From: Cliona cf. orientalis
Lineage: Eukaryota > Porifera > Demospongiae > Clionaida > Clionaidae
DNA length: 64,000 nucleotides
Assembly: GCA_963930775.1 (NCBI GenBank)
Contig: OZ005692.1
Span: 8,666,135 to 8,730,134 of the forward strand
Reading direction: 5' to 3'
Shown piece by piece: positions 16,668 through 52,385 of this stretch. The position numbers and the translations under genes are program-made. Every line of letters begins with the position of its first letter. The stretch's first letter is position 1. Below the pieces are notes generated by a model. That model was not told where the DNA came from, searched no databases, and saw only the letters and a program-made list of their open reading frames with translations.

Positions 16668-16717
16668 ATGGCTGAGGGAGGGAGAAAGAAAGGTGAGTCA
16701 AAAGCTGGGAGAAGACT

Positions 16718-16766
<49 letters not shown>

Positions 16767-19700
16767 TCACCCTTGATTATGGTATGTACGTTAGATGAAC
16801 AATAATTATTATGTAAAGGTTTACCCCCAAGGAAATACAAACAGCTGTTCCCTATCCCACTCCCCCCCCCCCCCAACCAATAAAATCCTAAAATTTAATA
16901 CTGATTCTTACGTCCTGTTGCTATGTGCAATATTAGCCATATTGCATTGGTAACTGTGCAATGTGAGTAGCCTCAGGTAAATTTACTGTGCAATATTAAA
17001 TACCGCAGGCCTTGAACAATAAACATATTGGTAACAATAAAAGTAAAACTATCAATGGAGCGTCTCGTGAGACTAAATGGAACGTATGGCGGGAAAGGTA
17101 GCGGGAGATCGCCAGTTTGAAGTGATGGGCAGAGTTGTCGATCAATCAATCGTAAGTCAACACAGTGTAGCTATGCATATCCAGGTAAGCTTACTGCGTA
17201 GGCACATAGCCTTGTTTTTAGGATAGTCAACAGCTCGAGCTTCATTTCTTGGCTTCTAAGCTTGACGTTGCAGGTCACGCTAACTATTGTAGTTCATCAT
17301 CAAGAATCTGATGGCTGTAGCAAGCTGTGTGGATTTGACCACACCCCTCATCACGAGACGTTCAGAAGTTTTCGTTTGAAAACTTGACTCAGAGAGCGGC
17401 TTTGTCCGTTTTGAGTAAGATAGCCTTGCCTTTTCTTTCTTTTTTAGTGTTCTATGCATATCTATGGTAGCTATGCCCACGGGATATAAATCATGCGCAC
17501 TCAGGATGCTATGCCTGGCATTTATTGCTTTGCGCCCTCGTGCTTCGGTGCAATAAATGCCATTCCTTACCTCGTGCCCGTGATATAACTATTACTTATT
17601 GCAAGCAGTAGTGCTTAGTGCATGTTGAGGGAGAGTGGTGCACATTATTCAACATTCCATTGGTGTGCGCATTCTATTCCCATTTGTAACATATATGCGT
17701 GACCACCATGGCCAAAAATTAGAGACTATATTTTTGAAGGTGCTGAATATTTTGAAGGCTAAAATTTAGCGGAGGTACAATAATCCTAAATACAGGTCTA
17801 TGTTGCATAATAGTGATTTTTTTTTTATTTAGTGTAGTGCTTAGTGCATATTGACACAGCATTGTTTAATGGAGTGTGTTATCTCTTCCCATTAGTACCA
17901 GCCCTCACTGTGGAGAATATCATGGCAGCTCTGAGAGGGATAGAGGAAAGATGGAATGACATTGGAGGATGGTTATATGTACCAGGGGAAATAAGGCAGG
18001 AAATAAGGAGCCAACATTCCACAGATTCTGATCGACTGAGGGCTGTGATTCTCTATGTCCTCACCCTACATCCTAGATCCAGCTGGAGGTGTGTCATCAG
18101 GGCTCTTCATGAGATGAGGGAACACCAAGTGGCAGAGCGAATACAATATTACTCTGAACCTGTGACAGGTATGCACATCAAAGACATAGCTACCATTCCA
18201 TGTGGTGTGAGATTACTCTCTAATGAGTCTAAAATTGTTGAGTATTATGGCTTGTAATAATTAGCATAACATTATTATTGTTATTATTATTGGTGTATTA
18301 GGCAGTCCAATGACAATAATAATTGCATCTCAAATATAGCACATGCACTAATTATTGATTCCAAAATGTAAAGAAAGCTTCTCACACACAATACAATGGA
18401 AAGATCACCACAATCATCGATAAATAATAGTTTATGGTATAATATACCTTTGTATACTCCAGTGAGCAAAGGGCATGTTTTTCCAATACAGACCCCAACC
18501 TCACTGTGGAGCATGTAGCTGATGTCCTTAGCTTGTTGGAGAGGAACTGGTATGACTACCCTCCGGGAGATGGTTACAGTCTGCATTACCATCTTGGTGT
18601 ACCAGACTCTAAGAGGAATGAGATCAGACGGCAGCACCAGTCACAACAACTTGCGTCACTGTCAGCATACATAGTGCAGTTCATCCCGGGGATCTCCTGG
18701 GCAGTTATAGCTGGATCCTTATACTACTGCTGTGAGGAAAGAGCACTACAGGCAGCAAAAAGATGCACCCAAAGGGAGGAGGGTAAGCTGTGTGCTGGGA
18801 TGACATGACATGTACTTACGTGATCATTAATTTTGTTACCTAGCTAGCAATCAGAGGATGTTAGTCAAACATATCACCAAAATTAATATTATACACTTTT
18901 GATTATCATTGTGTGCTATATAATATTATTAATGCACTGTTGTTGCTGACTCAGTGGGTTGACCTAGATTATGTACACGAGTGTATAGTATTATTGCAAG
19001 CATGCTCTAAATTGTAATGATCAGAATAATTGCTTAATTAACCTCCTCTGGTGATAATGGTATAATTATTATTTCAGTGAGGCCAGGAGCGCTCCTGGTG
19101 AGGTGTGTTCAGGTGACTCACTTCAATGATCTATAGTAGTGTGGATAACTATGAGCCTTGAATCTAAACTCACTAGTACTGTACCCACTTTAGTCTATAC
19201 ACTGATGCTGCATATAGCGGTGATGGTCTCATCAGTTGGCTAGCTGTCAAGGTCACCTATTAAATAATTTTGCTAGTATGTGTATTGTTTTTTTGTAACC
19301 CTCAGTTTGTTTTGTCGATCTTTATTGTTTTATCCAGATTCAACACTGATAGTGCCTCAGCTACTCTCAGCTCTGCAAGGTGGAGCTGACTGGTGGGGGC
19401 TAGGCCGGTGGCTTGGTGTACCTTGGTCCAGACTGAACGTGATGACAGGGAAAGAGTCCATGCTGGAGGAATGGCTGCAGAATCATCCTGCTCCAAGCTG
19501 GAAGCTGGTAGCCTGGGCCCTCTATAGGAGGGGTTATGGCCAACTCACTGGACACAGTATGCTAAAGCAGCTATATGGGAAACATGTTTCTGGTATGTGG
19601 TTGTGTACTGTGATAATTAGTGGAACAATACCACACTAATTGCCTCAAGTAATGATGAGTGTAATGATTTTGATCAGCTCAGACATTGATGGGACTGAAT

Positions 19701-22700
19701 GCATTCATTATAATATTATATCATAATAATTATGCTTGAGTACATAAAGCATCTGCTCTCTGTAGCAGTATGCGTGTGCTTTGTTGACTATCTTTATCTA
19801 CCTCTACATACATGTACTATGCTATAAATTGTATGCATGACAGAAAGCACATGGGGGTGCGGGTTGCGACCAACAAAAAAAAATAGTGTTTGCAATGCTC
19901 ATAGGCTTTATCATACCATATGAAGTAAGTTTTTTGACTATTTCAAAGAATTTGTTGTGCTTATGAGTTGCTCAGATGCATATACATGTAGATCTCGAGA
20001 TATGGCTATTTTCATGTTGACGACAGACAACCTTGATTATACCCTTGCTGCATATGCATGCACTGGGTATCTCAGTATTGCGAATCACAACCATTGTCAA
20101 TGACTCTGATAAAAATGAACACTATAGTGTCTACATGTTTGCTGGAGTATCCTCTTATGAATGCTCTATTTCATGAAGCCCTTCGCTATTTGCATCCCAA
20201 AGCTTTTGTGTAGCTTAACCCTTTCACAGGCAAAGGTGCAATAGGTCATACATACTATTGCTTTAGCATTGAACATAATTCTTTACAAGACTAGATTTAG
20301 CTACCCATAAGGGGTCTGCATAATGCTGGAATAATAGGCATTGTTGTGCTAATCTCATACGCAGCTCCATTCATGCATGCATGCACATACGAGAAAGTAC
20401 CTGGTCAAAAGGGTCACACTTCCTTGTCCTCAAGGTATGTATATTGCAGACCAATCAGATTGCAGAAGCGTGGTCACATGGCATTGGTGGAATGTAATCA
20501 TGAGTGGTCCGTACGTACGCCTGTCTACTCAGCCTATGCACACCGTACAGAAGTGGCAGTCAATTTTCATTTTACGACACCAGAATTGACAATTATTGCA
20601 TTTAAAGCTAGACAGTATGACTCTTTTGACCAGTTCTGGCGCATGATCGAGACTACTGTTGTGCAGGCATGCTGAAGTAATAGGCAGAACTCTGAGCATA
20701 AAAGAATAGCAATTTTTGGAGCATAATTGGTCAAAGCCAAATGGATTATGCATGTACCTTGTGCATGCGTGTGTGGGGGGAGGGAGAAGGAGGGTTGGAG
20801 GCGGTGGGGAGTGGGTTTGGCCGATATTAGTCAGCTCTTGCATAGTAGTTACTATTATTACTAAATTATAAGCTGCTGGCTCAAATATCCATTCGTGTGA
20901 GTTTTAATACTTGTATAATATTACAATTCTGTATGGAATGCTTTTGAATGATCACCATAGACAAGTACCAGGAATACAACAAAGGATTCATTTTCAATCG
21001 CTTATAATATTATTATTAAATTTTCAGCATACACAGTACCTATTCACGAAAAAGTAGAAGCTTGTCGCCAAGCCATCAGAGAAAAGGGAGCTGTCGATCA
21101 AATCATAATGCAAGGAATATTCTTTGGGCTTCCACGATCGGGAAAGACGTCCACAAAGAAACGCTTGACAGGCCAAAAGCCAAGCCTGGAGCAGCCCAGC
21201 ACTGGAGTGGCTGAGGAGGTGACCCGTGTAGAAATAGAGGGCCAGCAACCAATACTAGAGCAGCCCAGCACTGGAGTAGCAGAGGAGGTGACCCGTGTGG
21301 AAATTGAGGACATAGAGAAAACCACAGTGCAGCTTCTGTCTCCGTCAATCTGGAACGAAGTAACAGATCTAAGTGAGGAAGCAGCTATAGTTGTCGAAGA
21401 TGTCACAACTCATTTTACTCAGGATCGTGAGAGTAGTGTGGCGAGTAGAAAGCTAGTGAAACAGATAATGAAATCTCAAGCTACTGCTCCCATTCCAAAC
21501 GTGTTTCAAAGGATCATACGTGATGCAAAGAAATTTTTAGGATCTTATGCTGTGGATATTGTGCCTCCTAGTGCTGACATAGAGCATACCCCTCAGGAGG
21601 AGAGCATCACTGCTTCAAGTGACCCAATGGAAATCTTGGGTTTTGCACTACAAAAGTCTGCAATTGTCAAACATCAAGGACGAATTTTACAGTTCACACT
21701 GTATATCTCTGATGCTGGTGGACAGCCAGAATTCCAGGAGAGTCTGCCAGCTCTTGTTTCAGGTCCCTCAGTCTATTTCCTCACATTCCCTCTCCACAAA
21801 GGCTTGAATGAGAAGATTGCAGTCGAGTATCAACATCCTAGTGGGAGGTCTATTATCCCATTTGAAGCCAGTTGCACAACAAAAGAGATCCTGCTTTCCT
21901 CTTTGGCCAGCATAGCATCGACTAGGAGCTACATTAAACTAGAAGATGGGAAACCAGTCACTCCCAAAGTGCTTTTCATTGCCACCCACAAGGATAAGCT
22001 AGGATCAGAGCAAGATCTCCAAAAGATTGACCAAGAGCTCCAGGAAATTGTCCGCCGAAGCACTATTGCAAAAGAAATGATCGTTTTCTGTTCTGAAAAA
22101 CGAATGGTATTTGCTCTCGACAATACCTCCGATAATGATAAGGATATTCAACAAGTGAGGGATGCTGTTGAGCGGCTCGGTTTGCAGTCTAATGATTACA
22201 AAATTCGAACGCCGCACACGTGGATGTTGTTTGCAGTCACACTACGCCACCTACCAGGCAGAGTGCTCACCATCGAAGATTGCATGCAAGTAGCAAATGA
22301 ATGTGGCATTAAAGATCGTGGTGAATTGGATGATGCTCTCTGGTTCCTTCATCACAATGTCGGAATAGTACGCTACTTTCAGGAAGTTCCTGAGCTCTGG
22401 GATGTCGTCATCAAGGAGCCACAGTACATTTTTGACAAGGTGACAGAGCTAATCATTCAAACATTCACATTTGATAAAATTGGTCCCATTAAGTGTGAAG
22501 AATTTATGAAGATGGGCCTCTTTTCTGCTGATGTGTTCAGCAAATACCTGACCTCAGCTTCAGATACCTTAACTGGTGATCAGTTAGCCATTGCTCTAAA
22601 GCATCTTCACGTCATTGCTCCAATCGAAGAGAATGGCACTATCGTCAAGTATTTTGCTCCCGTTGCTCTGTCTCATGCTGAGCTTCCTCCAGACTCACAG

Positions 22701-23838
22701 TCAGAGGAAATTATCCCTTCTATCAGGATAGCGTTTGGGAGTGGCTTCTGCCCAAAAGGAATGTTTGGAGCACTTCTTGTCAGTCTGATCAAGCAACAGA
22801 AAATTTCACAGCATGACTGCAAGCTGAAGGAAGACAGGATCTACCGAGACCAGATTTGCCTCTCCATTGGACCGTATGACTCATTTCAGTTTTCGCTTTC
22901 TCCAACGTACATCAAAATCGCTCTGAGCTCAACCACTGATCGCAATCGAAAAGTGCCTCTCGGTCAGGTATGCTGTGATGTTCGACGTGAAATTGAAAGC
23001 AGCATTCGTAGCGTCACTGAAACACTCCACTACACTCAGAGAGCATCTCATTCCCTTGCCTTTGCCTGCCCTGAGCCACCTCCACACGACCAGTCACACT
23101 CTGCCACCATCAACTTCTCCCACAAACGAGAGCCTTGCACTATGACCTGTCAACTGACAAGAAAAGTTTACTATGATCTCCCTGACGGACACATGGTCTG
23201 GTTCGATGAGGTAGGTCATTACTTATACCATATATACATGTATATTTATCAGGATTTGTTATTGCATAGCTTGTAAAAGCTAATGTAATACTAATTTTCT
23301 TTTACTATAGAATATTTGTTCACCACCCAAAGCAAGTTGTCCGTCCCAAGCTACTTCAACTGATACAGCTAGCAGTATATCAGGTAGCTACCATAACCTT
23401 GTATAACTAAGTGTTTGAAATAATTTTGTACCTCCTACCTTTATACCATACTTTAAGTACGTGTTTAAAATTTTTTATGTACATGTACTAACCTTCATAC
23501 ATACAGATTTCCCCACTACTTCTTCTGTGCCTAAACTCCATCATCTCAATCGTATTGAGGGCTCTAATGGCAATGGGAAGATCGTGAAGGTGATAAAGCG
23601 GGCAGCAGCCAAGTGGGAGTCAGTTGCTACCAGTTTGCACTTTGAGAGCCATGACATCACTCGCATAAGAAAGGACTATCCCCAACAATCCGTGGATGCT
23701 TGTCGAACAGTATTCAGCGAATGGCTTCAGGATAATGGTCGGAAGCCAACCACTTGGAACACTGTAATTAAGGCTCTGGAAGAAGCTGACTTGTCCGAAC
23801 TCGCTGGCGAATTAAAGATTGTGCTTTCTGCTTCATAA
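16668..23838 (+). CDS. Death-domain x3 / Roc-like GTPase / COR-like / death-domain protein, copy A (intact)
   Basis: Seven exons: 16668-16692, 17896-18168, 18492-18782, 19338-19592, 21028-23210, 23311-23383, 23507-23838; phases agree throughout and give about 1143 residues. Exon 1 encodes MAEGGRKK. Exons 2-4 each encode one death-fold domain (about residues 9-99, 100-196, 197-281; W-L-G-V-P and PSSW/PSW signatures). Exon 5 encodes a Ras-like GTPase: P-loop GLPRSGKTS (315-323), STGV switch I, DAGGQ (510-514, as in Roc) and THKD (601-604), then a long COR-like region. Exons 6-7 encode a linker and a canonical death domain (AAAKWESVATSL, KPTTWNTVIKAL). Known Roc-COR proteins act as GTP-dependent signalling switches and death domains recruit partners, so this is probably a cytoplasmic signalling or innate-immune hub (inference). 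Paralogue at 43221-51897. Confidence 0.88.
16721..16762. repeat. (GA)n microsatellite in Roc-gene intron 1, copy A
   Basis: About 21 GA units just after the first exon; the paralogous run in copy B (about 43273-43302) is shorter. Confidence 0.95.
16911..17598. mobile_element. 688-bp insertion specific to copy A (intron 1)
   Basis: Copy B reads GATTCTTATTGC where copy A is split after GATTCTTA and resumes at TTATTGC, so the insert is flanked by TTA. It contains an 11-bp hairpin GGCATTTATTG/CAATAAATGCC near 17518-17553 and no convincing gene. It may be a Harbinger-like or other non-autonomous element; a deletion in copy B is the alternative. Confidence 0.45.
20345..20665. mobile_element. Old MULE-type MITE copy in Roc-A intron 4
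   Basis: Diverged relative of 29272-29601: shared blocks CCTGGTCAAAAGGGTCACACTTCC, ATGGCATTGGTGGAATGTAAT, GGTCCGTACGTACGC and CTTTTGACCAG. The paralogous position in copy B (about 46195-46500) has it too, so the insertion predates the segmental duplication. Confidence 0.7.
21172..21309 (+). repeat. 69-bp in-frame tandem duplication within the GTPase switch-I region
   Basis: Two units of 23 residues, each with EQPSTGVAEEVTRVEIE, lie directly after the P-loop helix. Both Roc paralogues have the duplication (copy B 49275-49412). Confidence 0.95.
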
Positions 23839-24219
23839 CTGTAAGGATATCTACGAATCATTACTTTTACCGTTTGAGTTATCTTAACGTAAAACTATTA
23901 GCTATGCAAGAATATTTTTATGATTGTTTAATCATAATATTATATGCACACTTTCCCACATTTTGTATTACTATTGCTACGTTAGTTGCAGACAGTCTCA
24001 AAAGTGCAAAATGTTACATCGCACAATGTCACGCATAGTCACGTGCAAGCGCGATTCATGTTTGGTAACTGAACAGCGACTTACAATAATAATAATTATT
24101 ATTATTATCATGGAACACGTGGTGTATACTACACAGTTTTATGTGATCACTCATGCACAGCGTACTCACCATTGTTTGTGTGTATTCACGTGATATTCGG
24201 TATTGATTTATCAAGATGG

Positions 24220-29262: not shown

Positions 29263-29271
29263 GGCGTGGGC

Positions 29272-30240: not shown

Positions 30241-31229
30241 GGTACCATTAAATTGCGTGGGCGTGAGGTGGGGGATATGACACCTAAACCACATCAAAGT
30301 CATTAGTGAGGTGCATGTTGTGTAACCACGCCCTTTTAATTGCACAGGTCTCAGGGGTGTGGCTGCTAGAGCCGGAAGTGTTCATTTAATATCCTCCATG
30401 GACCGGAAGCCGAGCCGGAAGGGAGGGGCCAGGCCACGCCCAAAACAGCCCCACCCTGTTCCCCAAGGACCACCATTCTCAATCAAGTGCCTACTAACCA
30501 CCGGATGTCCACCGGAAGCCCACAATCAATCCCAATTAAAACACACAGCTTCCTCAAGGCCAAAACACACACAAACACTTGGAGGCCGTTCTGCCACACC
30601 GCCCACGCAAGAGCTCACCTCATTTCCTGTGTGGGCGGAGTGACAACACGTCATCGCAACCACATCCGCTTCAAACCATCGTCAGCTTCCGTCCAGCCGT
30701 ACGGGCCCCTCGATCGCACCGCCGTACAGTGCCTCATTAACAGACATGGCCTCACCTTTGACCTCCTGCCACGCCCCCAAAGCCTCCTCGAGGGGTTCAA
30801 AGGTCACCACCGCTTCCGGGACACGCCCACCTATCGCCGAGGCCAAGTCCCAGGCGCCGATGTCCAAGCACTGGCCCGTGAAGCCACGCCCAATCGGAAG
30901 CAATAAAACCTGCATTAACGCACACGCACACACTCCACACAGTGCCAGGAACACGCCCACATGCTTAATTAGGCCTAATAAGCTTTTTTTTGCGGTTAAT
31001 AGTTAAGAAAGAATGCTTTGATCTTGCTTTGATGTGGGCAATTACCGGCCTTTTCTTCAGGGGCCACTTCCGGTCGCTAATTACACGCGCATAATCATCC
31101 CTGGCCGATTCTGGACACGCCCACCTTCGACCAAAAGCACTCGTATGGCCTCTTCGGCCACGCCCCTTCACGATTCGCTAATTGAATTAGCCATTCCTGA
31201 CGCTCACGCCCACGCAATTAAATGGTACC
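30241..31229 (+). mobile_element. TTAA-flanked non-autonomous element E1 (left half of a 2-kb palindrome)
   Basis: 989 bp with TIR GGTACCATTAAATTGCGTGG / complement ending AATTAAATGGTACC, flanked by TTAA (30237-30240 and 31230-31233). GC-rich, crowded with CCACGCCC boxes. The TTAA target and the GG start fit Kolobok-type elements better than piggyBac, whose ends start CCC. Open frames run on both strands because of composition; none has a recognised domain. Confidence 0.8.
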
Positions 31230-31233
31230 TTAA

Positions 31234-32245
31234 GGTAGCATTAAAGTGCGTGGGCGTGAGCGTCAGGATTGGCTAATTCAATTAGCGAATCGTGAAGGGG
31301 CGTGGCCGAAGAGCCCATACGAGTGCTTTTGGTCGAAGGTGGGCGTGTCTAGAATCGGCCAGGGATGATTATGCGCGTGTAATTAGCGACCGGAAGTGGC
31401 CCCTGAAGAAAAGGCCGGTAATTGCCCACATCAAAGCAAGATCAAAGCATTCTTTCTTAACTATTAACCGCAACGACAAAAAAAAAAAAAAAAAAAAAAA
31501 AAGCTTATTAGGCCTAATTAAGCATGTGGGCGTGTTCCTGGCACTGTGTGGAGTGTGTGCGTGTGCGTTAATGCAGGTTTTATTGCTTCCGATTGGGCGT
31601 GGCTTCACGGGCCAGTGCTTGGACATCGGCGCCTGGGACCTGGCCTCGGCGATAGGTGGGCGTGTCCCGGAAGCGGTGGTGACCTTTGAACCCCGCGAGG
31701 AGGCTTTGGGGGCGTGGCAGGAGGTCAAAGGTGAGGCCGTGTCTGTTAATGAGGCACTGTACGGCGGTGCGATCGAGGGGCCTGTACGGCTGGACGGAAG
31801 CTGACGATGGTTTGAAGCGGATGTGGTTGCGATGACGTGTTGTTACTCCGCCCACACAGGAAATGAGGTGAGCTCTTGCGTGGGCGGTGTGGCAGAACGG
31901 CCTCCAAGTGTTTGTGTGTGTTTTGGCCTTGAGGAAGCTGTGTGTTTTAATTGGGATTGATTGTGGGCTTCCGGTGGACATCCGGTGGTTAGTAAGCACT
32001 TGATTGAGAATGGTGGTCCTTGGGGAACAGGGTGGGGCTGTTTTGGGCGTGGCCTGGCCCCTCCCTTCCGGCTCGGCTTCCGGTCCATGGAGGATATTAA
32101 ATGAACACTTCCGGCTCTAGCAGCCACACCCCTGAGACCTGTGCAATTAAAAGGGCGTGGTTACACACCATGCACCTCACTAATGACTTTGATGTGGTTT
32201 AGGTGTCATATCCCCCACCTCACGCCCACGCAATTTAATGGTACC
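31234..32245 (-). mobile_element. TTAA-flanked non-autonomous element E2, inverted copy of E1
   Basis: 1012 bp, the near-exact reverse complement of E1, flanked by TTAA (31230-31233 shared with E1, and 32246-32249). It is longer than E1 mainly because of a poly-A run of about 24 nt at 31479-31502, where E1 has about 8. A 170-codon open frame (31292-31804) reads through the poly-A as polylysine; its distal part, VFLALCGVCACALMQVLLLP onward, is also open in E1 on the minus strand (30682-30960). Confidence 0.8.
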
Positions 32246-32262
32246 TTAACTGCGCTGAGTTA

Positions 32263-32517: not shown

Positions 32518-32520
32518 TTA

Positions 32521-37894: not shown

Positions 37895-38678
37895 TACTTT
37901 TTTTGTTTTCCTTCTTGACTTCGTTGACAGGTATCTCAGAGCAGTTAGCTATAGCCAGATTTTGAAAGCTTATATACTGCAAACCTGGTTATAAACATGT
38001 ACTCTTTTGGGTGCAAATCATCAAAATTATTGCGTGCATAACGTAATACCATACAGCTCAAATTATGTTTTGCGTAGTACAGTATCCTTTCCTTGTTTTC
38101 ATTGACTAGCTGTAAACAGCTACTGTAGAGTGTCAATTCTAAATTAAAAACATGGCCTATTTTGGGTTTAAATTTCAGGAAACATCACAGAATCCAAATT
38201 ATAGTTAAGGTTCTGTTAGGTAATATTAAATTTTATGAACCATGCCATGTTTATGGGATCCAGAAGGCCTATACTGTGTGTGTGGTTTTGTCCCCGTAGA
38301 CCCTTTCTTTATTGTACACACATGGAAAAAAGAATCTTAATGTGTAGCTATATTCTCATGGCCCCATTGAATGTGCATGATGTTTTGTGATGCTCACCAC
38401 TATTCATAATAATTATTATTTGAATAATTGAATTTACAATGAGTAGTTCTTGTAGATGCTGGCTATTGTAGACAAGGATAGTCGGACGTACTCCCATGCA
38501 TCTCAGCCTTGCTCACCTACACTGTACATTCACATAAGGTATAGCTATTATTATAGTCACATGACACTGTGGATGATACACCTATAATATATTATAAGGA
38601 AATCATAACTAGCTATAATAGTATAATGTGCATCATTCACATAATTATAGCTACATAACTAGAGCTCTGTAGAGCACA
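37895..38678. other. Upstream region of the kinase gene
   Basis: AT-rich, no gene recognised; should contain the kinase promoter, but no distinctive motif was identified. Confidence 0.5.
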
Positions 38679-38680
38679 TA

Positions 38681-39118: not shown

Positions 39119-39398
39119 TAATAATACACAGTAGCTAGTTATGGTAGTATAATAATAATAATATTATTATAGCTGTGCACCAGTATTAATACCAGTATAA
39201 GCATGCACACAGTCATACATGATTCCACACAGAACTGTGGGTGACCCAGCTGTAATATATATAATACTAGGAGGTAAAGGTTCTACATACCAGTGCTTTC
39301 ATATGCATTATTCATGCTGGTGAAATCATTATAATAACATTGATAATCTACCACATTCATCATACGGTAGATACACCATAAGCAGCGGATTAATTAAA

Positions 39399-40889
39399 TG
39401 ACTTAATACAGGAAGGTTTTGGCTCAGAATTCACAATTGTACCTTCAACATTTTCACAAACGTAAAACGAAGAGGCCCATCCTGTCACGGTGACATTATC
39501 AAACGTGATACCCCTACAAGGGTTTAACTCCGCACACCTCAACACTCCCGCGTTCAACCAACCGCCATCTGATGTCACATTCTGCATGATAATATTAGTG
39601 ACGTTAACGAGGGGTTGGGGTGGGGGCCATATTCCATCTCCCCCTCCATCCGGCTGCTTTTGCTGCTGAGGACTGATGTAGATTGGCCAGAGAATTGGGG
39701 AGTGGATTGTAATGTTCTGATAGACGATGTTGTCGATGATTCCAAATCCTTCCTTCCCTGAATTTGTCTTAATGTATATAGCCTTGAACGGATATGAGAA
39801 CTTCACGTTCCTAAACGTCACATTTCGAATGCATGCAGTTAATCTTAGCATTTGGTGGAACAGATCCAATACTCATCCCAACGGAATGTACAATGTTTGC
39901 ATTCTCAACTGTTACATTCTCTGTACATCCTTCCTCATCGTTGAGATGACCTGGTTTCACAGCCACAGCATCATCATAGTTCTCTATAGTGACATTCTGG
40001 ATCAAAATATTCTGACCAGCTGGATCAATTCCGTCAGTGTTGAAGGGAAACATGGGGACTTTCCAACCGGATGACTCTGATAAGTTTTTTTGAGCTTCAA
40101 TGTCTACCCAGATTGTGATATTTCGTACAGTGAAATTCTTGATAGGTTTGGCATAGATGTGAAATTGTGGTGCATTTAGTAAGGTCAGGTTTTCCACCAA
40201 AACATTGACACAGTTCTGAAAGTGAACAAGGCGAGGTCGATTGTGCTGGAGAAAGTTGAACAGAAGCTCGACCCACCATTTATAGCCTTGGCCATCAATC
40301 GTACCAGACCCAGACAGGGTAAAATCAGAACAGTTAGGGAAATAGAGCACACTCTGATAGTTACCATCCATCACAGGCCAGGCAGTGATGTTGGATATGG
40401 CAATCAACTTTCCTTCCACTCGCAACTGAACTTCCTTGAGACCAGTGATGTACACTGAGAAGATGTAGTAGCTGGAATACTTTGGAACGAGTACTGTGCT
40501 CCCTTGAGTGGCATTTTGAAGGGCCTGCATGCTTGTAGTGTTTAATGGAAAATTTCATAAAGAATTGATATTATGTTGGAGTCATGGTATTGATACTGAA
40601 TTCAATAGTTGGATCAGTTTTATGAGATGGGGGTAGGGGGCGGGTGCAGTGGAGAATATTTAATAGAGTGCTCCCTCGCCCTCTCTAAACATTATGCTGC
40701 TCAGTATCATAGATAATGATAATAATTACTAGCCTGCGAGATGGCTTGGCTGTTCTTCACAGCAGCTTGAACAGAGGAATCGTTGGCTATGGCGCCATAG
40801 CTATCCACTGAGAGAACTTGGTTCGTGGGTTTAGCGATGGCCGTCTGCCAAGAGATGAAAACAATCAAGGCTAGTATTACTGCACTCAT
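39399..40889 (-). pseudogene. GH28-like secreted protein, copy B, frameshifted
   Basis: Signal-peptide exon from ATG at 40889 (MSAVILALIVFISW, AKPTNQ) to about 40735, and a long exon from about 40524 to the stop at about 39399. NTDG and NYDDAVAVKPG motifs are kept; GHG reads SVG and RIK reads YIK, as in copy A. A 4-bp GCAT duplication near 39832-39835 (GAATGCATGCAG against GAATGCAG in A) throws the frame after ...GSVPPNAKINC. Downstream sequence remains open in the shifted frame to SCIKSFN, and it lacks copy A's own GCAT insertion. The intron is short here (about 0.2 kb). The natural join is at CAG|GCTAGT, which would need a GC-AG intron. Confidence 0.75.
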
Positions 40890-41522: not shown

Positions 41523-41939
41523 GGCCACTCCAAATTGATTGCTTGTTTATCGGGCCCGACCGACCCTAACTTTTGGTAATTTCAATTTACAAATGAAAAT
41601 TTTCGGATAATTAGAAAACAGATATATGGTTTCAAGCACGTGCCTAAGAGAAACGGAGAGAAAGGAGAGATGGCTGCCGCTAGCAGTTATGCGTCGCCCA
41701 GTGTAGTGGTTTATAGGGGAGCTACGGTAGCGAAGAGGCAAATGATAGTATAATGCGATTGGAGTGATAATTTTGGTGCCTTGTTGGAGAAGCTGGGTCA
41801 CGTTTTGTATGTATTATGTATGACATCACATCCTTTTATAATGATATTCATATGTCTGTTTTCTTTTTTTAAGCCTACCTACCAACCCTAATTTTTTGAG
41901 AAGGTAGACCGATAAACAACTTATCAATTTGGAATGGCC
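41523..41939 (+). mobile_element. Harbinger-type MITE, copy B
   Basis: Paralogue of 14987-15392, flanked by TAA. The small internal frame starting MAAASSYAS is cut by TAA at the position where copy A reads GTAAAATGC (here GTATAATGC), so the frame is not conserved. Confidence 0.7.
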
Positions 41940-43269
41940 TAATAATATTATACATGTGTACAATGCCAAGTGGCACTAACATTAGAGCGGTGCTGTAATT
42001 AGAACTTTTATGGTATATTATGACCATCTTCATGGAAATGGCAGTCGTTTCCATACTTATCATGCAGCATTAAAATTCTAGTTGTTTGGGAAACAGTATG
42101 AAAAGAATTATAATGTACATATACATGTATGCACTTGACATTCTATAGCTGTTCTTCTGATGAAAAGTGGATCTCTGAAATAAAACCGAATTACCACTGA
42201 AACTAAGAGAAGTTGCAACCCAAGCACATCTACCTACCTACGTGTAATTTGAGTCTGGACAGATTTTGGAAACTAAGTTGATCAACGAGGTATACTTTAA
42301 TAATGTAGTGTGGTCCTTAGAACTTAATTAATAATTATTAGTTAGTGAAGATTTGTATATTACGGGTTGATAACCAGACCAAAGGTAGTTAGGTGATGTA
42401 TGTACCCTGTAATTTGGATGTGTGTGTTTTTGACCTGGCCGTCCTCCTACATACTTGAGTCTTATCAGTCCTAGTGAAGCCCAATCAAGTGGCTAGTACA
42501 CTGTAACTGCGTGGCATGGCGGGAGGGTGTACCACATGCTACATGTGCAATGTTATACTAGTAATATTATTATCATGATGCTAAAATTAATAATAATTAC
42601 TATTAATGCACTATCCACTTTCATTGGGCTTGACTATGTTAGTGTGTCTCTGGCCCTCAACCAATGCCAGGCATAGCTTGTGGTTTATTGCCACCCACAC
42701 ACATCAAGAAGAGTATGAGGAAATGGCCTAATATGGACTAAACCATTCATAACAATAGTCACTGTGTCATACTATAGTAGTATCATTATCAGGTAGTACA
42801 TACATGTATACAAGTCATGCGTAGTGCAGGCTAGCCTTAGTTTTTTGTTTAATGCTAGCTATAACAAACCAGACCTCTGTTACAAGCACTTATGCTTCCC
42901 TATGCTGCTGATACTGTATAACAGGAAACTTATTGAGGGAAGAAAACTTGAGCGGATTGGTAGGAATAGAGCATTTTGCAGAGAAAACTTTCGTGGAATC
43001 ATAAAATAATTACAAAAATGGGTGTTGCATGGCTTAAATTTCGTGGATATAAAATATATTGTCCCCTGAAAGTTCATCATGGTACACCCTAAGTACATGG
43101 GTTTTGTACTTGGCTTTAAGTATGGCTTCATCATGCTACAAGTGCTATCATTGTTTGTGTAGGCTGGTGGTGTAGTCATTGCCCCAGGAGGTGGGCGTGT
43201 CTGATAGAGATCATCCTACAATGGCTGAGGGAGGGAGAAAGAAAGGTGAGTCAAAGCTGGTAGAAGACT

Positions 43270-43305
<36 letters not shown>

Positions 43306-46194
43306 CCCTTGATTATGGTATACATTAGATGAACAATATATAAACGTTTACCCCCAAGGAAAATACAAACAGCTGTTCCCTATCCCACTCCCCCCCCCCC
43401 CCCAACCAACTACTAATTCCTAAAATTTAATACAATTCAATACTGATTCTTATTGCCAGCAGTAGTGCTTAGTGCATGTTGAGGGAGAGTGGTGCACATC
43501 ATGCATTATTCAACATTCCATTGGTGTGTGCATTCTATTCTCATTTGTAACATAATATTATATGCATGACGAGCTTGGCCAAAATTAGAGACTATATTTT
43601 TGAAGGTGCTGAATATTTTGAAGGCTAAAATTTAGCGGAGGTACAATAATCCTAAATACAGGTCTATGTTGCATAATAGTGATTTTTTTTATTTAGTGTA
43701 GTGCTTAGTGCATGTTGACACAGCATTGTTTAATGGAGTGTGTTATCTCTTCCCATTAGTACCAGCCCTCACTGTGGAGAATATCATGGCGGCTCTGAGA
43801 GGGATAGAGAGAAGATGGGATGACATTGGACGATGGTTATATGTACCATTGAAAACAAGGCTGGAAATAAGGAGCCAACATTCCACAGACTCTGATCGAC
43901 TGAGGGCTGTGATTCTCTATGCCCTCACCCTAGATCCTAGATCCAGCTGGAGGTGTGTCATCAATGCTCTTCATAGGATAGAGGAACACCAAGTGGCAGA
44001 GCAAATACAGGATTACTCTGAACCTGTGACAGGTATGCACATCAAAGACATGGCTACCGTTCCATGTGGTGTGAGATTACTCTCTAATGAGTCTAAAATT
44101 GTTGAGTATTATGGCTTGCGATAATTAGCATAATATTATTAATGTTATTGGTGTATTAGGCAGTCCAATGACAATAATAATTGCATCTCAAACCACCAAA
44201 TATAGCACATGCACTAATTATTCCAAATGTAAAGAAGGCTTCTCACACACAATATAATATAAAGATCACCACAATCATCGATTATGGTATAGTATACCTT
44301 TGTATACTCCAGTGAGCAAAGGGCATGTTTTTCCATGCAATTAATGCAGACTCCAACCTCACTGTGAAGCATGTAGCTGATGTTCTTAGCTTATTGGAGA
44401 GGAACTGGTATGACCACTCTCCAGGAGGTGGTTACAGTCTGCGTGCGCATCTTGATGTGCCATACTCTAAGGAGAAGGAGATCAGAGGGCAGCACCAGTC
44501 ACAACAACTTGCGTCACTGTCAGCATACATAGTGCAGTTCATCCCGGGGATCTCCTGGGCAGTTATAGCTGGATCCTTATACTACTGCTGTGAGGAAAGA
44601 GCACTACAGGCAGCAAAAAGATACACCAAAAGGGAGGAGGGTAAGCTGTGTGCTGGGATGACATGAAATGTCATGTACTTACATAATTATTAATTTCATT
44701 ACCTGGCTAGCAATCAGAGGAAGTTAATCAAAAATATCACCAAATATTATACAGTTTTGATTATCATTGTGTGCTATATATTAATGTACTGTTCTTGCTG
44801 ACTCAGTGGGTTGACCTGGATTGTGTACACGAGTGTATAGTATTATTGCAAGCATGCTCTAAATTGTAATGATCAGAATAATTGCTTAATAACCTCCTCT
44901 GGATGATGATGGTATAATTATTATTTCAGTGAGGTCAGGAGCACTCCTGGTGAGGTGTGTTCAGGTGACTCACTTCAATGATCTATAGTAGTGTGGATAA
45001 CTATGAGCCTTGAATCTAAACTCACTAGTACTGTACCCACTTTAGTCTACACACTGATGCTGCATATAGCGGTAATGGTCTCATTAGTTGGCTAGCTGTC
45101 AAAGTCACCTATTAAATAATTTTGCTAGTATGTGTATTGTTTTTTTTGTAACCCTCATGTTGTTTTATTGTTTTATCCAGATTCAACACTGATAATGCCT
45201 CAGCTACTCTCAGCTTTGCAAGGTGTAGCTCACTGGTATGGGCTAGGCGTGTGGCTTGGTGTACCTGCATCCAGGCTGGGAGTGATGACAGGGAAAGAGT
45301 CCATGCTGGAGGAATGGCTGCAGAATCATCCTACTCCAAGCTGGAAGCTGGTAGCCTGGGCCCTCTATAGGAGAGGTTATGGCCAACTCACTGAACACAG
45401 TGTGCTAAAGCAGCTATATGGGAAACATGTTTCTGGTATGTGATTATGTACTGATGATAATTAGTGGGACAATACCACACTAATTGCCTCAAGTAATGAA
45501 TGTAATGATTTTGATCCATTCCTGATCAAGTATCAGACATACTGATGGAACTGAATGCGTTCATAATAATGTCATAATATATGAGTAGATAAAGCATCTG
45601 CTCTCTGTAGCAGTATCTTTATCTACCTACATACATGTACTATGCTATAAATTGTATGCATGACAGAAATCACATGGGGGTGCGGGTTGCGGCCAACAAA
45701 AAAATAGTGTTTGCGACGCTCATAGGCTTTATCATACCATATGAAGCAAGTTTTTTGACAGTTTCAACGAATTTGTTGTGCTTGTGAGTTGCTCAGATGC
45801 CTATACATGTAGATCTCAAGATATGGCTATTTTCATGCTGACAACAAACAACCTCGATTATAAATCCCTTGCTCCATATGCATGCACTGGGTATCTCAGT
45901 ATTGCAAATCACAACCATTGTCAATGAGTCTGATAAAAATGAACACTATAGTGTCTACGTGTTTGCTGGAGTATCCTCTTATGAACACTCTAGCCCTTCG
46001 CTATTTGCTTCCCAAAGCTTTTGTGTAGCTTAACCCTTTCACAGGCAAAGGTGCAATAGGTGATGCATGTACATATTAGTCATATTAGCATTGAACATAA
46101 TTCTAGAATATTATTTACGAGACTACTTAGATTTAGCTACCCATAAGGGGTGTGCATACTGCTGGAATAATAGGCATTGTTGTGCTAATCTCGT

Positions 46195-46500
46195 ACATAG
46201 CCCCATTCATGCATGCATGCATGCACGTACGAGAAAGTACCTGGTCAAAAGGGTCACACTTCCTTGTCCTCATGGTATGTATATTGCAGACCAATCAGAT
46301 TGCAGAAGCGTGGTCACATGGCATCGGTGGAATGTAATTATGAGTGGTCCGTACGTACGCCTGTCCACTCAGCCTATGCACACCGTACAGAAGTGGCAGT
46401 TATTTTTCATTTTACGACACCAGAATTGACAATTATTGCATTTAAAGCTAGACACTTAATTTTAGTATGACCCTTTTGACCAGTTCTGGCGCATGAGACT
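46195..46500. mobile_element. Old MULE-type MITE copy in Roc-B intron 4
   Basis: Counterpart of 20345-20665 with the same conserved blocks (CCTGGTCAAAAGGGTCACACTTCC; CTTTTGACCAG). Confidence 0.7.
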
Positions 46501-46883
46501 ACTGTTGTGCAGGCATGCTGAAGTAATAGGCAGAACTCTGAGCATAAAAGAATAGCAATTTTTGGAGCATAATTGGTCAAAGCCAAATGGATTATGCATG
46601 TACCTTGTGTGTGCGTGTGTGTGTGGGGGGGGGGGGGAGGGGGAAGGAGGGTTGGAGGGGGTGTGGAGTGGGTGGCTGCGGGCTCAACTATCCATTCGTG
46701 TGAGTTTTAATACTTGTATATTACCGTAGACTCGGGTTAGTAAGCGCATGCGCTTATTGCACTAAGTGGTAAGGAAATATGCGCTTAATATAAAGTGTGC
46801 GCTTATTAGAGAACATTATTTTATCACCTCCCATCCGTACTGCCTACTTTCACGTTTAGTGCGGCTGCTGGAGCACTGAAGCC

Positions 46884-47267
46884 ATGGCGAGTGTCAATCC
46901 CGAAGACGTGGCAATTTTTATCCACGAAAGCGTTGTGAGAGGGCATCACATTTATAAAGAAACGTGGACTCCATCGGTAGGAGAAGTTCTCCTTGTTCAA
47001 CAAGAGCCGGAGAATCCGCACGATCGTCGTGCGGTGTGCATCTTAAAATCATCCACGATCGTGGGCCACGTTCCTCGAGAACTCTCTCGGGTGTTTTGGT
47101 TCTTCTTAAGTCATGGTGGCACAATCTCTTGTGAAATTATTGGGCACAGAAAACGTGGAAAGGGCTTGGAAGTTCCATGTCTGTACAAGTTCACAGGTTC
47201 AGAGAGAATAATAACAAAGATGAAAGGGATTCTACGAGTGAAGAACCTTCATAGCCACTACTGTTAA
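46884..47267 (+). CDS. HIRAN-domain protein inside the Tigger-like transposon
   Basis: 127 residues, a single exon, ATG in good context and stop TAA. Almost the whole protein is a HIRAN-type fold: VRGHHIYKETWTPSVGEVL (strands 1-2), QEPENPHDRRAVCIL (the E-P-x-N-x-x-D-x-x-A-V hallmark), IVGHVPRELSRVF and GKGLEVPC. HIRAN domains in HLTF-type proteins bind 3' single-stranded DNA ends and stalled forks. Here it stands alone between the left terminal repeat and the transposase, transcribed toward the transposase (convergent). A role in binding transposon ends or repair intermediates is inference. It is uninterrupted, which argues that it is maintained or young. Confidence 0.8.
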   Translation: MASVNPEDVAIFIHESVVRGHHIYKETWTPSVGEVLLVQQEPENPHDRRAVCILKSSTIVGHVPRELSRVFWFFLSHGGTISCEIIGHRKRGKGLEVPCLYKFTGSERIITKMKGILRVKNLHSHYC

Positions 47268-47415
47268 TCATTACATAATTTCTGTCTTTGTTATCAACTA
47301 AATTATAAGGCATGACATGCAATAAATATTCTCCTTGATAAGAAATTACAGCATACCTGTGCATGTGCATGAATAAACTGTATACATACAGTATGATAAA
47401 AGCTACAGTCTCAGT

Positions 47416-48871
47416 CTAGTCCACTGATGGGTCTTCAACATCATCTTCATCTGAAAAGGGATCTCCTTCATCTTCACTATCGACTATGTAGTCTTCAAGG
47501 CTGTCGAGGTTGATTTCGCCATCTCTAGAGCCATCTGGAGGTACGGATATTCCACACTTGATGAAGGAACGAACGACCATATCCGTCTTTGTAGGTAGCT
47601 CTTCCCACGCACCACCAACCCATTTGGTAATGAGCACTCTACGTTCACTTGCATTTATCGTCCCTCGTACGTAACTGTCCAAATTCTCTTGCAAGTGTTT
47701 AGTAGCCTGTCTCTCAACAGCAGCTTTAAAAGGAGCGTTGAAGACCACGTCAACAGGTTGGATGATACTTGTAGTACCAGCTGGTACATAGACTGGGTAC
47801 GTGTTGCACTGCTCTTTTAGGCAACCTTGAATTGCTTCTGTTGTTTGAGCTTTATGGACGTCCAATGTAAGAAGCATGTGACCACTGCAGACTGGCTTCC
47901 ACTGTTGGATGATCCACTGACGCATTATCTGTTCATCGCACCAGGCGTTGTCCTGGAAACTTACTCGAACTCTTGTGTCATATCGTAGCTGTACATAAAT
48001 AATAATTATCATCATTATCCTGCACCACCAAACATACCAGTATAGTATTGTAGTTTTTAATATAAACCTACCTTTTCTCTGAAAGATATCCGTTTCCCTT
48101 TTCCTCGGAAAATAATCAGTGATTTTACTCTAGCCTTCCCATCCGCAAACAATGTAAGTTGCACCGTACATTGTCTCTTCTCCAGGCCTGACCCGCCTCC
48201 TCTGACCCAAACTGTGCTGTCTCCAGTGTCTGCATACGTTGCTCCATCAGCAAAACAGAAAGGGAGAGGCGTCTGATCAACATTGGCAATCTGGTGAAGT
48301 TCAAACCGTCCTACTTGTCCTGTCTGCTCACCGTCACAAGCGATCTCGCGGATAGTCTTGTGGAAAGACCTAATAGCGCTTTTCTTGTCGTCCGCTGGTT
48401 TTTGGCAAACGTTCGTAGAACGTCGGAAACTAATGCGATATCGCTTCTTGAAACTGTCGAACCACCCGTCTGAAAAGTTGACGCTTCGGGATCAATCCGT
48501 TCAAGCAGTTGCTTCGCTCTCGTCTTAAACCAGAATCCTTTCACTTTTAGCCCGTGTTTTCGAAGAGCCTTGTATTCCCGATACAGTTCCGTCTCCACTT
48601 CTGGATACATAGCTCTCCTGACATGAACGACGTGCTTGCTTCCTTTCTTGGCATCTTTTATTTTTTCTTCATCACCAGTCCATCTTAAGATCGTCTTCGT
48701 GTTCAACGAAAATTTTTTAGACGTCTGGTAAAGGTTGTTGGCACGGTAAAAATTAACCACCGTCAGTTTGAACTCGCGTGTGTAGCTCTTTCTGGACCGC
48801 TTTTCACTTGTTGAGGAGTCAAAAGGAGCGAGAGAAGACGCAGATCTAGCTTCGGACATCATCGACTTCAA
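47416..48871 (-). pseudogene. Tigger/pogo-type DDE transposase (one frame break)
   Basis: Start at 48871 or the nearby MMSEARS. The N-terminal part has a helix-turn-helix (SYTREFKLTVVNFYRANN, LNTKTILRW) and a CENP-B-like second segment ending near ERIDPEAS. The frame then slips by one nucleotide around 48475, where SDGWFDSFKKRYRIS continues in another frame. The DDE_1 core follows: NVDQTPLPF (first D), LLTLDVHKA (second D), and IQPVDVVFNAPFKA (third acidic position, D). An intron of about 80 bp (near 47992-48072, GTAGGT...TGTACAG) separates the first D from the second D. The C-terminus is Asp/Glu-rich. Catalyses cut-and-paste transposition when intact. The slip is either a disabling mutation or a sequencing error. 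Confidence 0.8.
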
Positions 48872-51800
48872 CTTGGTTTATTAGCGGTGAGGTGGTAAAA
48901 AGTTGGCACGTTAAAATAAGCGCATGCGCTTATTATAATGAAGCAAGACCGGGATGTGAGCATGCGCTTAATATATAGTGTGCGCTTAATAGAGAGGTGC
49001 GCTTATTAACCCGAGTCTACGGTATTACAATTCTGCATCATGTGCATGGAATGCTCTTGAATGATCAGCATAGACATGTACCAGGAGCACAACAAAGGAT
49101 TCATTTTCAATCACTTATATTAAATTTCAGCATACACAGTACCTATTCATGAAAAAGTAGAAGCTTGTCGCCGAGCCATCAGAGAAAAGGGAGCTGTCGA
49201 TCAAATCATAATGCAAGGAATATTCTTTGGGCTTCCACGATCGGGAAAGACGTCCACAAAGAAACGCTTGACAGGCCAAAAGCCAAGCCTGGAGCAGCCC
49301 AGCACTGGAGTGGCTGAAGAGGTGACCCGTGTGGAAATAGAAGGCCAGCAACCAATACTAGAGCAGCCCAGCACCGGAGTAGCAGAGGAGGTGACCCGTG
49401 TGGAAATGGAGGACATAGAGAAAACCACAGTACAGCTTCTATCTCCGTCAATCTGGAACGAAGTAACAGATCTAAGTGAGGAAGCAGCTATAGTTGTCGA
49501 AGATGTCACAACTCACTTTACTCAGGATCGTGAGAGTAGTGTGGCAAGTAGAAAGCTAGTGAAACAGATAATGAAATCTCAAGCTACTGCTCCCATTCCA
49601 AATGTGATTCAAAGGATCATACGCAAGGCAAAGAAAAAGTTCGTACAGAAATCAAATGCTGTGGATATTGTGCCTCCTAGTGCTGACATAGAGCACACCC
49701 CTCAGGAGGAGAGCATCACTGCTTCAAGTGATCCCATGGAAATCTTAGGTTTTGCACTACAGAAGTCTGCAATTGTCAAACATCAAGGACGAATTTTACA
49801 GTTCACACTGTATATCTCTGATGCTGGTGGACAGCCAGAATTCCAGGAGAGTCTGCCAGCTCTTGTTTCAGGTCCCTCAGTCTATTTCCTCACATTCCCT
49901 CTCCACAAAGGCTTGAATGAGAAGATTCCAGTCGAGTACCAACATCCTAGCGGGAGGTCTATTATCCCATTTGAAGCCAGTTGCACAACAAAAGAGATCC
50001 TGCTTTCCTCTTTGGCCAGCATAGCATCGACTAGGAGCTACATTAAGCTAGAAGATGGGAAACCAGTCACTCCCAAAGTGCTTTTTCATCGCCACGCACA
50101 AGGATAAGCTACGATCAGAGCAAGATCTCCAAAAGATTGACCAAGAGCTCCAGGAAATTGTCCGCCAAAGCACTATTGCAAAAGAAATGATTATTTTCTG
50201 TTCTGAAAAACGAATGGTATTTGCTCTCGACAATACCTCCGATGATGACAAGGATATTCAACAAGTGAGGGATGCTGTTGAGCGGCTCGGTTTGCAGTCT
50301 GACGATTACAAAATTCGAACGCCACACACGTGGATGTTGTTTGCAGTCACACTACGCCACCTACCAGGCAGAGTGCTCAGCATCGAGGATTGCATGCAAG
50401 TAGCAAATGAATGTGGCATTAAAGATCGTGGTGAATTAGATGATGCTCTCTGGTTCCTTCATCATAATGTAGGAATCGTACGCCACTTTCAGGAAGTTCC
50501 TGAGCTCCGGGATGTGGTCATCAAGGAGCCACAGTACATCTTTGACAAGGTGACAGAGCTGATCATTCAAACATTCACATTTGATAAGGTTGGTCCCATT
50601 AAGTGTGAAGAATTCATGAAGTTGGGCCTCTTTTCCTCTGATGTGTTCAGCAAATACCTGACCTCAGATTCAGACACCCTAACCGGTGACAAGCTAGCCA
50701 TTGCTCTAAAGCATCTTTATGTCATTGCTCCAATTGAAGAGAATGGCACTGTTGTCAATTATTTTGCTCCCGTTGCTCTGTCTCATGCTGAGCTTCCTCC
50801 AGACTCACAGTCAGAGGAAATTATCCCTTCCATCAGGATAGTGTTTGGGAGTGGCTTCTGCCCAAAAGGAATGTTTGGAGCACTTCTTGTCAACCTGCTC
50901 AAGCAACAGAAAATCTCACAGCTTGACTGCAAGCTGAAGGAAGACAGGATCTACCGAGACCAGATTTGCCTCTCCATTGGACCGTACGACTCGTTTCAGT
51001 TTTCGCTTTCTCCAACGTACATCAAAATCGCTCTGAGCTCAACCACTGATCGCAATCGAAAAGTGCCTCTTGGTCAGGTATGCTGTGATGTACGACGTGA
51101 AATTGAAAGCAGCATTCGTAGCGTCACTGAAACACTCCACTACACTCAGAGAGCATCTCATTCCCTTGCCTTTGCCTGCCCTGAGCCACCTCCACACGAC
51201 CAGTCACACTCTGCCACCATCAACTTCTCCCCCAAAGGAGAGCCTTGCACTATGACCTGTCAGCGGTCAGGAAAATTTTATCCTGATCTCCCTGACGGAC
51301 ACATGGTCTGGTTTGATGAGGTAGGTCATTACGTATACGGTATTATATGTGTTTATTTATCATGATTTATTATTGTATAGCTTGTAAAAGGTAATGTAAT
51401 ACTGGTTTTCCTTTCTACAGAATGTATGTTCACCACCCAATGCAAGTTGTCCGTCCAAAGCTACTTCAACAGATTCAGCTAGCAGTGCATCAGGTAGCTA
51501 CCATAACCTTGTATGTGTTATATTATACATTTGAAGTAATTCAATTTTAGTTCCTTTCTTTCTTGTACATTCAGATTTTCCTACTGCTTCTTCCCTGCCT
51601 AAACTCCACCATCTTGATCTCATTGAGGGCAATGGGAAGACTGTGAGGGTGATAAAGCAAGCAGCAGCCAAGTGGGAGGCAGTTGCTACCAGATTATACT
51701 TCGATATCGATGACATCACTCGCATAAGAGAGGACTATCACCAACAAACCTTCAAAGCTTGTCGAACTACCTTTATCGAATGGCTTCAGGGCAAAGGTCG

Positions 51801-52385
51801 AACTCCTACCACTTGGAACACGGTAATCAATGCTCTGGAAGAAGCAGACTTATCCGAACTCGCTGGTGATCTAAACATTGTGTTTTCCGTCTCATGATCC
51901 TACAACTCAGATGTAGCTAATTTTTCTAATAATAAATAATATTTAATTGATACTTTGAGTCATGACATTGTCCTATTATGCATACTCACACTGTACCTAT
52001 TACCACTCTTATTGCTCGTGTTAACTGTGAACAGTCTCAAAAGCGTGGTAGACCACTAAATAAATCTTACGTTGCACGACATCACGTTCGTACGAAATTT
52101 TTGGATGAGATGGCAACCAGCGACTTGGCTAGATATTGAACGGCACGTGGTACTACACAGTTTTATGTGATACCGAAATGGCTGGTAATTTTCATGGGGT
52201 GCTAATTTTTGTTTTTTCGTTATTTTCGTGGTTGACTTGGCAGTCACGAAATTTTGGCTATAGATATTGAACACGTGGTACTACAGAGTTTTATGTGATA
52301 ATTTGCTCATGCACAGTGTACTCACCATTTTAATATTGTTATGTTTGTGTGTATGTAATTATTGGGTTAACAAGATGGACTATAC

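Follow-up and report, generated by a model that had tools for sequence, protein, structure and literature searches.

Do the death domains (DDs) of a Roc-COR GTPase evolve as variable surfaces under positive selection? The question is raised by a 64,000-nucleotide stretch of the genome of the sponge Cliona cf. orientalis (contig OZ005692.1; C4:8666135-8730134 in the 216.8 Mb assembly of 149 contigs that was searched; hereafter the window). Two paralogous genes in the window, A and B, each combine a short putative first exon, three death-domain exons (DD1, DD2 and DD3), a Roc-COR exon, a short linker exon and a C-terminal death domain (DD4). From these two copies the original prediction was that amino-acid-changing substitutions concentrate in the death domains, as expected of positive selection for new partner specificity. 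With further paralogues in the comparison, a small set of homologous positions in DD1-3 was shown to be under strong diversifying selection, with Roc-COR and DD4 conserved. Partner specificity is the reason that we infer for this selection.

Divergence of the two copies and selection among their paralogues

Differences between A and B were counted by the Nei-Gojobori method with equal weights. The differences in the death-domain exons were found to be real and the predicted counts were reproduced. Fifteen residues were replaced in DD1 (20 nonsynonymous and 3 synonymous changes; about 15 replacements against 3 synonymous changes had been predicted), 14 in DD2 (16.2 and 4.8; predicted about 14 against 4) and 10 in DD3 (14.7 and 4.3; predicted about 10 against 3). 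The Roc-COR exon, for which about 5% residue differences had been given, differed at 35 of 725 codons (4.8%; 40 nonsynonymous vs 55 synonymous changes), and DD4, said to differ at about a quarter of its positions, at 28 of 106 codons (26%; 31 vs 25). Among the codons listed as carrying several changes, GGG>TTG, TAC>GCG and AAC>GGA do so, but CAG>CTG is one change. The introns and flank of DD1-3, described as near-identical, differed at 126 of 2311 aligned sites (5.5%) and are only similar.

Pooled over DD1-3 the pair showed 50.9 nonsynonymous and 12.1 synonymous changes (dN 0.088, dS 0.063), which gave an omega (dN/dS) of 1.39 (binomial p 0.19), or 1.57 (p 0.11) with a transition weight of 2. 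With these pooled p values of 0.19-0.11 for omega above 1, we rejected the A/B pair as sufficient proof of selection on DD1-3. The nonsynonymous rate in DD1-3 did exceed the rate in the surrounding introns and flank (p 0.0099; DD1 p 0.018, DD2 p 0.28, DD3 p 0.19). Synonymous divergence was not elevated in these exons, being 0.061 compared to 0.055 in the introns (p 0.74), and the check named for refuting the prediction thus did not refute it.

The Roc-COR exon was constrained between A and B (omega 0.21). Gene conversion homogenising this exon had been offered as an alternative or additional cause of the contrast. However, at 0.109 its synonymous divergence was about double the 0.055 measured in the DD1-3 introns (p 2e-5), and its nearest introns were more diverged as well (0.10 and 0.14), so that such conversion is unsupported. 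DD4 had a high synonymous divergence between the copies (dS 0.44, omega 0.32), and the introns beside it were diverged too (0.14 and 0.25). The DD4 of A was 93% identical to that of paralogue F and 74% identical to that of B, and from about 23.4 kb onwards the distance of A was 0.04-0.11 to F and 0.17-0.27 to B. The A/B difference in DD4 thus reflects a recombinant 3' end in A, and the claim of positive selection in the C-terminal death domain was removed. As a separate observation, a DD4-type domain 74% identical to that of A was seen at G000:C7:1307998-1308309, with no close DD1 or Roc match nearby among the matches listed.

Searching with the DD1 of A gave eight members at 77-100% identity (best 150 of 835 candidates scored). 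Besides A and B these were four further members on C4 and single ones on C3 and C8; the next-best of the matches listed was at 41%. Reading of their neighbourhoods placed DD1-3 in seven paralogues (A, B, C, D, E, F and H) and Roc-COR and DD4 in five (A, B, D, F and H); for C, E and G no close Roc-COR exon was found within the stretches read. A lone DD1-type exon (L036, G000:C3:10110830-10111099, 84% to A) lies upstream of a gene of the C3b type described below, with no close Roc exon within the 12 kb read. Over all paralogue pairs omega was 0.56-6.0 in DD1, 0.52-1.83 in DD2 and 0.32-1.59 in DD3, as compared to 0.17-0.30 in Roc-COR and 0.16-0.51 in DD4. Whole-domain values above 1 were common in DD1 only; some pairs fall below 1 in DD1-3 because selection acts on few codons.

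Site models of the Goldman-Yang type with F3x4 were fitted with our own script rather than with PAML, branch lengths being taken from M0 and then scaled. Based on M1a-M2a comparisons, selection was detected in each of the three domains, with twice the log-likelihood difference (2dlnL) being 46.8 for DD1 (8 paralogues, p 6.8e-11, omega2 13), 45.7 for DD2 (7 paralogues, p 1.2e-10, omega2 12) and 41.3 for DD3 (7 paralogues, p 1.1e-9, omega2 9.7). The selected class had an omega of 10-13 at 5-11% of codons, the three domains joined gave 156.3, and M8a-M8 agreed. Star and swapped topologies gave 42.7-66.2 per domain, and the star tree 176 for the joined domains. In DD4 (5 paralogues, omega 0.34, 2dlnL 0.0) a selected class added nothing, nor did it in Roc-COR, to which M1a and M2a only were fitted (5 paralogues, 752 columns, omega 0.29, 2dlnL -0.2). 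The prediction of positive selection in the death domains therefore held for DD1-3 once paralogues were added, but not for DD4, where we rejected it on these values and on an omega of 0.24 in another cluster.

The finding was replicated in other clusters of the superfamily on C3. The 2dlnL was 73.7 in C3a (10 members), 185.2 in C3b (24 of 39 listed matches, with 72-100% identity to one C3b domain; an earlier run on four members gave 48.1) and 176.4 in C3c (20 of 29 listed matches in 10.57-11.02 Mb). The DD4-type control was tested in one replication cluster, C3c, where 16 of 18 matches were taken and one identical sequence was dropped; in the 15 distinct domains left no selection was detected (omega 0.24, 2dlnL 0). 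Read by eye, one C3c and one C3b stretch have the order DD, DD, DD, Roc-COR-like, the C3b stretch as far as it reaches, and that of C3c is flanked by DD1-type and DD4-type matches. Three pairs of C3b death domains had identical scores (G000:C3:10286389 and 10398035; 9958247 and 10326411; 9936096 and 9946992), and are either duplicates of very recent origin or remaining haplotype copies.

A mutational hot spot, gene conversion from diverged donors, alignment error or relaxed constraint could in principle give a similar picture, as recombination is real at the 3' end of A, copy B is frameshifted, a hot-spot model is slightly better for DD3 and the loops of C3c are rich in gaps. We consider such an origin very improbable. 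Selection was favoured over a neutral hot-spot class of equal parameters by 15.4 lnL units in the joined domains, by 4.2 in DD1 and by 7.0 in DD2. With rate and omega both free the joined estimates were 1.27 and 9.6 (0.3 and 46 in DD1; 0.14 and 80, at the bound, in DD2), and omega values of 6-13 are out of reach of relaxation alone. Null data were simulated for DD1 only, under M1a, with recombination mimicked by reshuffling the tip labels at intervals of 15 or 5 codons. Of the 72 replicates planned, 55 ran to completion, 24 without recombination and 24 + 7 with it. Their 2dlnL had medians of 0.5-1.0 and maxima of 4.2-5.0, compared to 46.8 observed. DD1, with one gap, and C3b, with none, align cleanly.

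The varying side of the domains

Selected positions (posterior >0.9, DD1 numbering) were compared among six sets, DD1, DD2, DD3, C3a, C3b and C3c. Positions 24 and 30, which lie in helix 2 (H2) and at the start of H3, were selected in all six; position 72 was shared by four sets, and positions 34 and 73 by three each. A value of 48 was obtained for the coincidence statistic, as compared to null means of 10.9-12.3, and was reached in 0 of 20,000 draws under each of three nulls, one of them restricted to variable positions. Helix limits were inferred from alignment to PIDD and RIPK1. The changes had been predicted to cluster between helices 2 and 4 of DD1-3; they do cluster, but from the end of H1 to H3, with a further cluster in the H5-H6 loop.

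By segment, mean omega exceeded 1 in H2 and in H2-H3/H3 of every set; in the H1-H2 and H5-H6 loops it did so in five sets, DD2 being the exception. It was below 1 in the H3-H4 loop, the H4-H5 loop and H6 of every set and in H4 of five (1.42 in C3b). H1 was mostly below 1 (1.16 in DD3 and C3a, one site each), as was H5 (1.26 in C3b and 1.08 in C3c, one site each). Both DD4-type sets had an omega below 0.5 in every segment. Death domains are described as making type I contacts of H1/H4 with H2/H3, type II contacts of H4 and the H4-H5 loop with the H5-H6 loop and H6, and type III contacts of H3 with the H1-H2 and H3-H4 loops (in the available part of PMC7156525). By this scheme the varying side would mainly be one side of the type I and II contacts, apart from H6 and the H3-H4 loop. 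DD1 position 30 faces a tyrosine of PIDD in the profile alignment, which we take from its numbering to be Y814. PIDDosome formation is blocked by peptides with Y814A, or with helix 3 of PIDD or RAIDD (PMC4977500, accessible portion).

Each member carried its own combination of residues at the selected sites (8/8, 7/7, 7/7, 10/10, 24/24 and 20/20). Mean identity was 13-29% at these sites and 83-89% elsewhere, a descriptive comparison, since the sites were chosen for varying.

We propose that A and B are members of a large paralogous family with the layout DD1-DD2-DD3-Roc-COR-linker-DD4. Each of DD1-3 would have one contact face formed by positions 24 and 30 and, in part of the sets, by positions 34, 72-74 and the H1-H2 loop. 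By homology such a face would correspond to one side of the known contacts, through H2/H3 (type I), the H5-H6 loop (type II), and H3 with the H1-H2 loop (type III). Together the three tandem domains may serve as a variable sensor for a diverse partner, with the Roc-COR GTPase as the switch and the conserved DD4 as a constant signal output. The likeliest purpose would be non-self recognition, directed at microbes or symbionts, or at other individuals. We rate this whole reading as evenly balanced between right and wrong. More tentatively, and with somewhat less than even confidence, many dozens of Roc-COR genes may form a germline-encoded receptor repertoire in which death domains have become the variable part that does the recognising. 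One hypervariable face on each of the three tandem domains would then make up a combinatorial code, with the GTPase switch and a constant DD4 as its readout.

A serious rival, although on the whole an unlikely one, is that the death domains of each paralogue assemble only with others like themselves or with a single cognate partner, and that contact residues diversify to keep dozens of co-expressed paralogues from cross-reacting, with no non-self ligand involved. Many close paralogues occur in one genome (8 of the C4 type, 39 listed matches to one C3b domain), each tested member has its own residue combination, and homotypic binding is normal for death domains (PMC7156525, part available). However, strict homotypy should diversify both contact sides, yet H4 and the H4-H5 loop have no selected site in five of the six sets, and DD4, likewise a death domain, is undiversified. 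A partner outside the family is favoured over pure self-assembly because the varying and conserved sides are asymmetric and DD4 is spared.

Alternatively, pathogen or symbiont proteins could bind and block the death domains, which would then be targets rather than sensors, with the host surface evolving away. Clustered sites of high omega are the usual sign of an arms race, and bacterial death-like domains exist (according to the accessible text of PMC8195603). Under such escape the site attacked could vary from family to family, but two positions recur in 6/6 sets, and the sparing of DD4 is left unexplained; we regard this explanation as improbable.

Several observations weigh against a variable sensor face. 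The A/B pair by itself is suggestive and no proof of omega above 1 in DD1-3. In DD3 alone the neutral hot-spot class was slightly better (-852.7 vs -854.4, a difference of 1.7), and with both parameters free the estimates were a rate of 4.2 and an omega of 2.4. The fit to one side of the contacts is incomplete: H6 (type II) and the H3-H4 loop (type III) were free of selected sites, as were the H1-H2 and H5-H6 loops of DD2, and selected sites did occur in H4 of C3b (47 and 50) and, singly, in H1 of DD3 and of C3a. All six sets are homologous to one another, and three of them (DD1-3) come from the same genes. The single face is read from alignment to solved death domains and from the helix limits derived from it. 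In C3c the loops are rich in gaps and their alignment is less sure (97 of 103 columns kept). Some copies may be disrupted or incomplete, C, E and G having no close Roc match in the stretches read and B a frameshift.

Domains, gene models and other features of the window

The domain assignments differ in strength. A profile of 31 domains, which included DD2, DD3 and DD4 of A, matched the PDB death domains of RIPK1 (6e-6), PIDD (4.5e-5) and FADD (1.4e-4). As single sequences, DD1, DD2 and DD3 of A matched no Pfam family at E<=1, and DD4 matched Death (E 2.7e-9, 37.5 bits, cut-off 22.6). The Roc-COR exon of A scored just below the cut-off for COR-A (E 1.7e-8, 34.9 bits, cut-off 35.3) and had no Pfam Roc match at E<=1; a C3c relative reached 21.3 bits, below the cut-off of 27. 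Three motifs, which we take to be the P-loop, DxxG and KD motifs, are readable by eye in the Roc exon, with an insert after the P-loop. No NACHT, NB-ARC or LRR match was found in the five scanned exons of A, the upstream DNA being outside the scan. TRADD-N likewise had no Pfam match in these exons, with a model whose reach to such divergent forms was not checked.

The exon models of A and B have consistent GT-AG splice sites and phases as read from the sequence. DD1, DD2 and DD3 are phase 1 at both ends, and the linker exon between Roc-COR and DD4 had been missed by the original prediction. Coordinates are given in the table.

Table. Positions of the exons of copies A and B, and of elements within copy B, in the window
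Feature	Positions	Strand	Basis or remark
A, putative first exon	16668..16692	+	short; ATG; phase 1 end at GTGAGT; phase agrees with DD1 exon; sequence reading
A, DD1 exon, positively selected	17896..18168	+	gene model, site models
A, DD2 exon, positively selected	18492..18782	+	gene model, site models
A, DD3 exon, positively selected	19338..19592	+	gene model, site models
A, Roc-COR GTPase exon	21028..23210	+	purifying, omega 0.29 over 5 paralogues
A, linker exon, short	23311..23383	+	splice sites, phase
A, DD4, C-terminal death domain, purifying	23507..23838	+	Pfam Death, site models
B, putative first exon	43221..43245	+	sequence reading
B, DD1 exon	43760..44032	+	gene model
B, DD2 exon	44350..44640	+	gene model
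B, DD3 exon	45181..45435	+	gene model
B, DD3-Roc intron stretch not aligning to A	46674..49042	.	DDE_1 transposase and HIRAN open reading frames inside
B, HIRAN-domain open reading frame in intron before Roc	46860-47267	+
B, DDE_1 transposase open reading frame in intron before Roc	47416-48129	-
B, Roc-COR exon	49131..51320	+	broken by one-base frameshift near 50.09 kb
B, linker exon	51421..51493	+	gene model
B, DD4	51575..51897	+	gene model

Polarised by paralogue D, the Roc-COR changes of the B lineage were 10 synonymous to 0 nonsynonymous upstream of the frameshift and 13:8 downstream, and those of the A lineage in the same two parts 9:8 and 18:13. As the changes in B show no sign of long neglect, the frameshift would be young or an assembly error, and B may be a young pseudogene or carry a misassembled base. 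The Roc exon of A has a tandem duplicated stretch, with GQ-P-LEQPSTGVAEEVTRVEIE present twice. The matched length of this exon was 2091 bases in H, 2178 in A and 2253 in F, and because of this variation the repeat number may vary among paralogues.

Other open reading frames (ORFs) were seen in the window. Two protein kinase ORFs lie between A and B, at 33498-34652 (-) and 36836-37948 (-) (Pfam Pkinase, 3e-35 and 1e-32). Two near-identical ORFs of 178 amino acids in opposite orientation, at 30370-30906 (+) and 31580-32116 (-), form a long inverted repeat that is probably a mobile element. Two ORFs of the GH28 (polygalacturonase-like) type, at 7226-8179 (-) and 39390-40554 (-), are 92% alike at the DNA level; Pfam was run on the former only, and the latter is broken into two frames. 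One would not expect GH28 in an animal, and it could have been acquired. A tandem pair of long ORFs at 54037-55035 (-) and 56053-57966 (-), 86-96% alike in pieces, has an N-terminal hydrophobic stretch and is probably coiled-coil.

Relation to known systems and significance

Death domains are normally fixed signalling adaptors. In DAPK1 and those other animal ROCO proteins that have a death domain, it follows Roc-COR at the C-terminus, as here. Unlike in DAPK1, three extra death domains stand in front, and no kinase or ankyrin match was found in the five scanned exons of A (the upstream DNA was outside the scan). The closest parallels to the proposed logic are NLRs and brown-algal LRR-ROCO proteins, with death domains taking the place of their variable module. 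According to the accessible part of PMC11378527, brown-algal LRR-ROCO genes likewise combine a ROCO GTPase with repeated N-terminal modules, one per exon of fixed phase, have positively selected positions that recur at a matching place from module to module and are proposed immune receptors. Their variable modules are LRRs, whereas death domains vary here, and the conserved C-terminal death domain after Roc-COR sets the present genes apart from them as far as that text describes them (PMC11378527). Fungal NLRs with WD40, TPR or ANK repeats also have selected hypervariable positions at fixed places in the repeats, on a binding surface, and some act in non-self recognition; they join a NACHT or NB-ARC switch to superstructure repeats, in place of Roc-COR and death domains (PMC4986451, accessible part). 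In the sponge Amphimedon a large expansion of Death-like/TRADD-N genes has one to three N-terminal Death-like domains, as here, but its N-terminal Death-like and TRADD-N unit recurs and the downstream part varies, whereas here the N-terminal death domains vary (available text of PMC8195603). Among the literature matches listed, from a search that most subscription journals lay outside, none described death domains of ROCO genes as hypervariable or under positive selection.

Allorecognition is known in sponges, which also harbour dense microbial communities. For recognition inside their cells, NLRs (PMC12909245, in part) and Death-like/TRADD-N families (PMC8195603, in part) have been described as repertoires. 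If our reading is true, the large Roc-COR family would be a further candidate recognition system, with a testable code of few residues per domain. A death domain would then be able to evolve as a receptor surface, and the conserved DD4 in the same protein would serve as an internal control.

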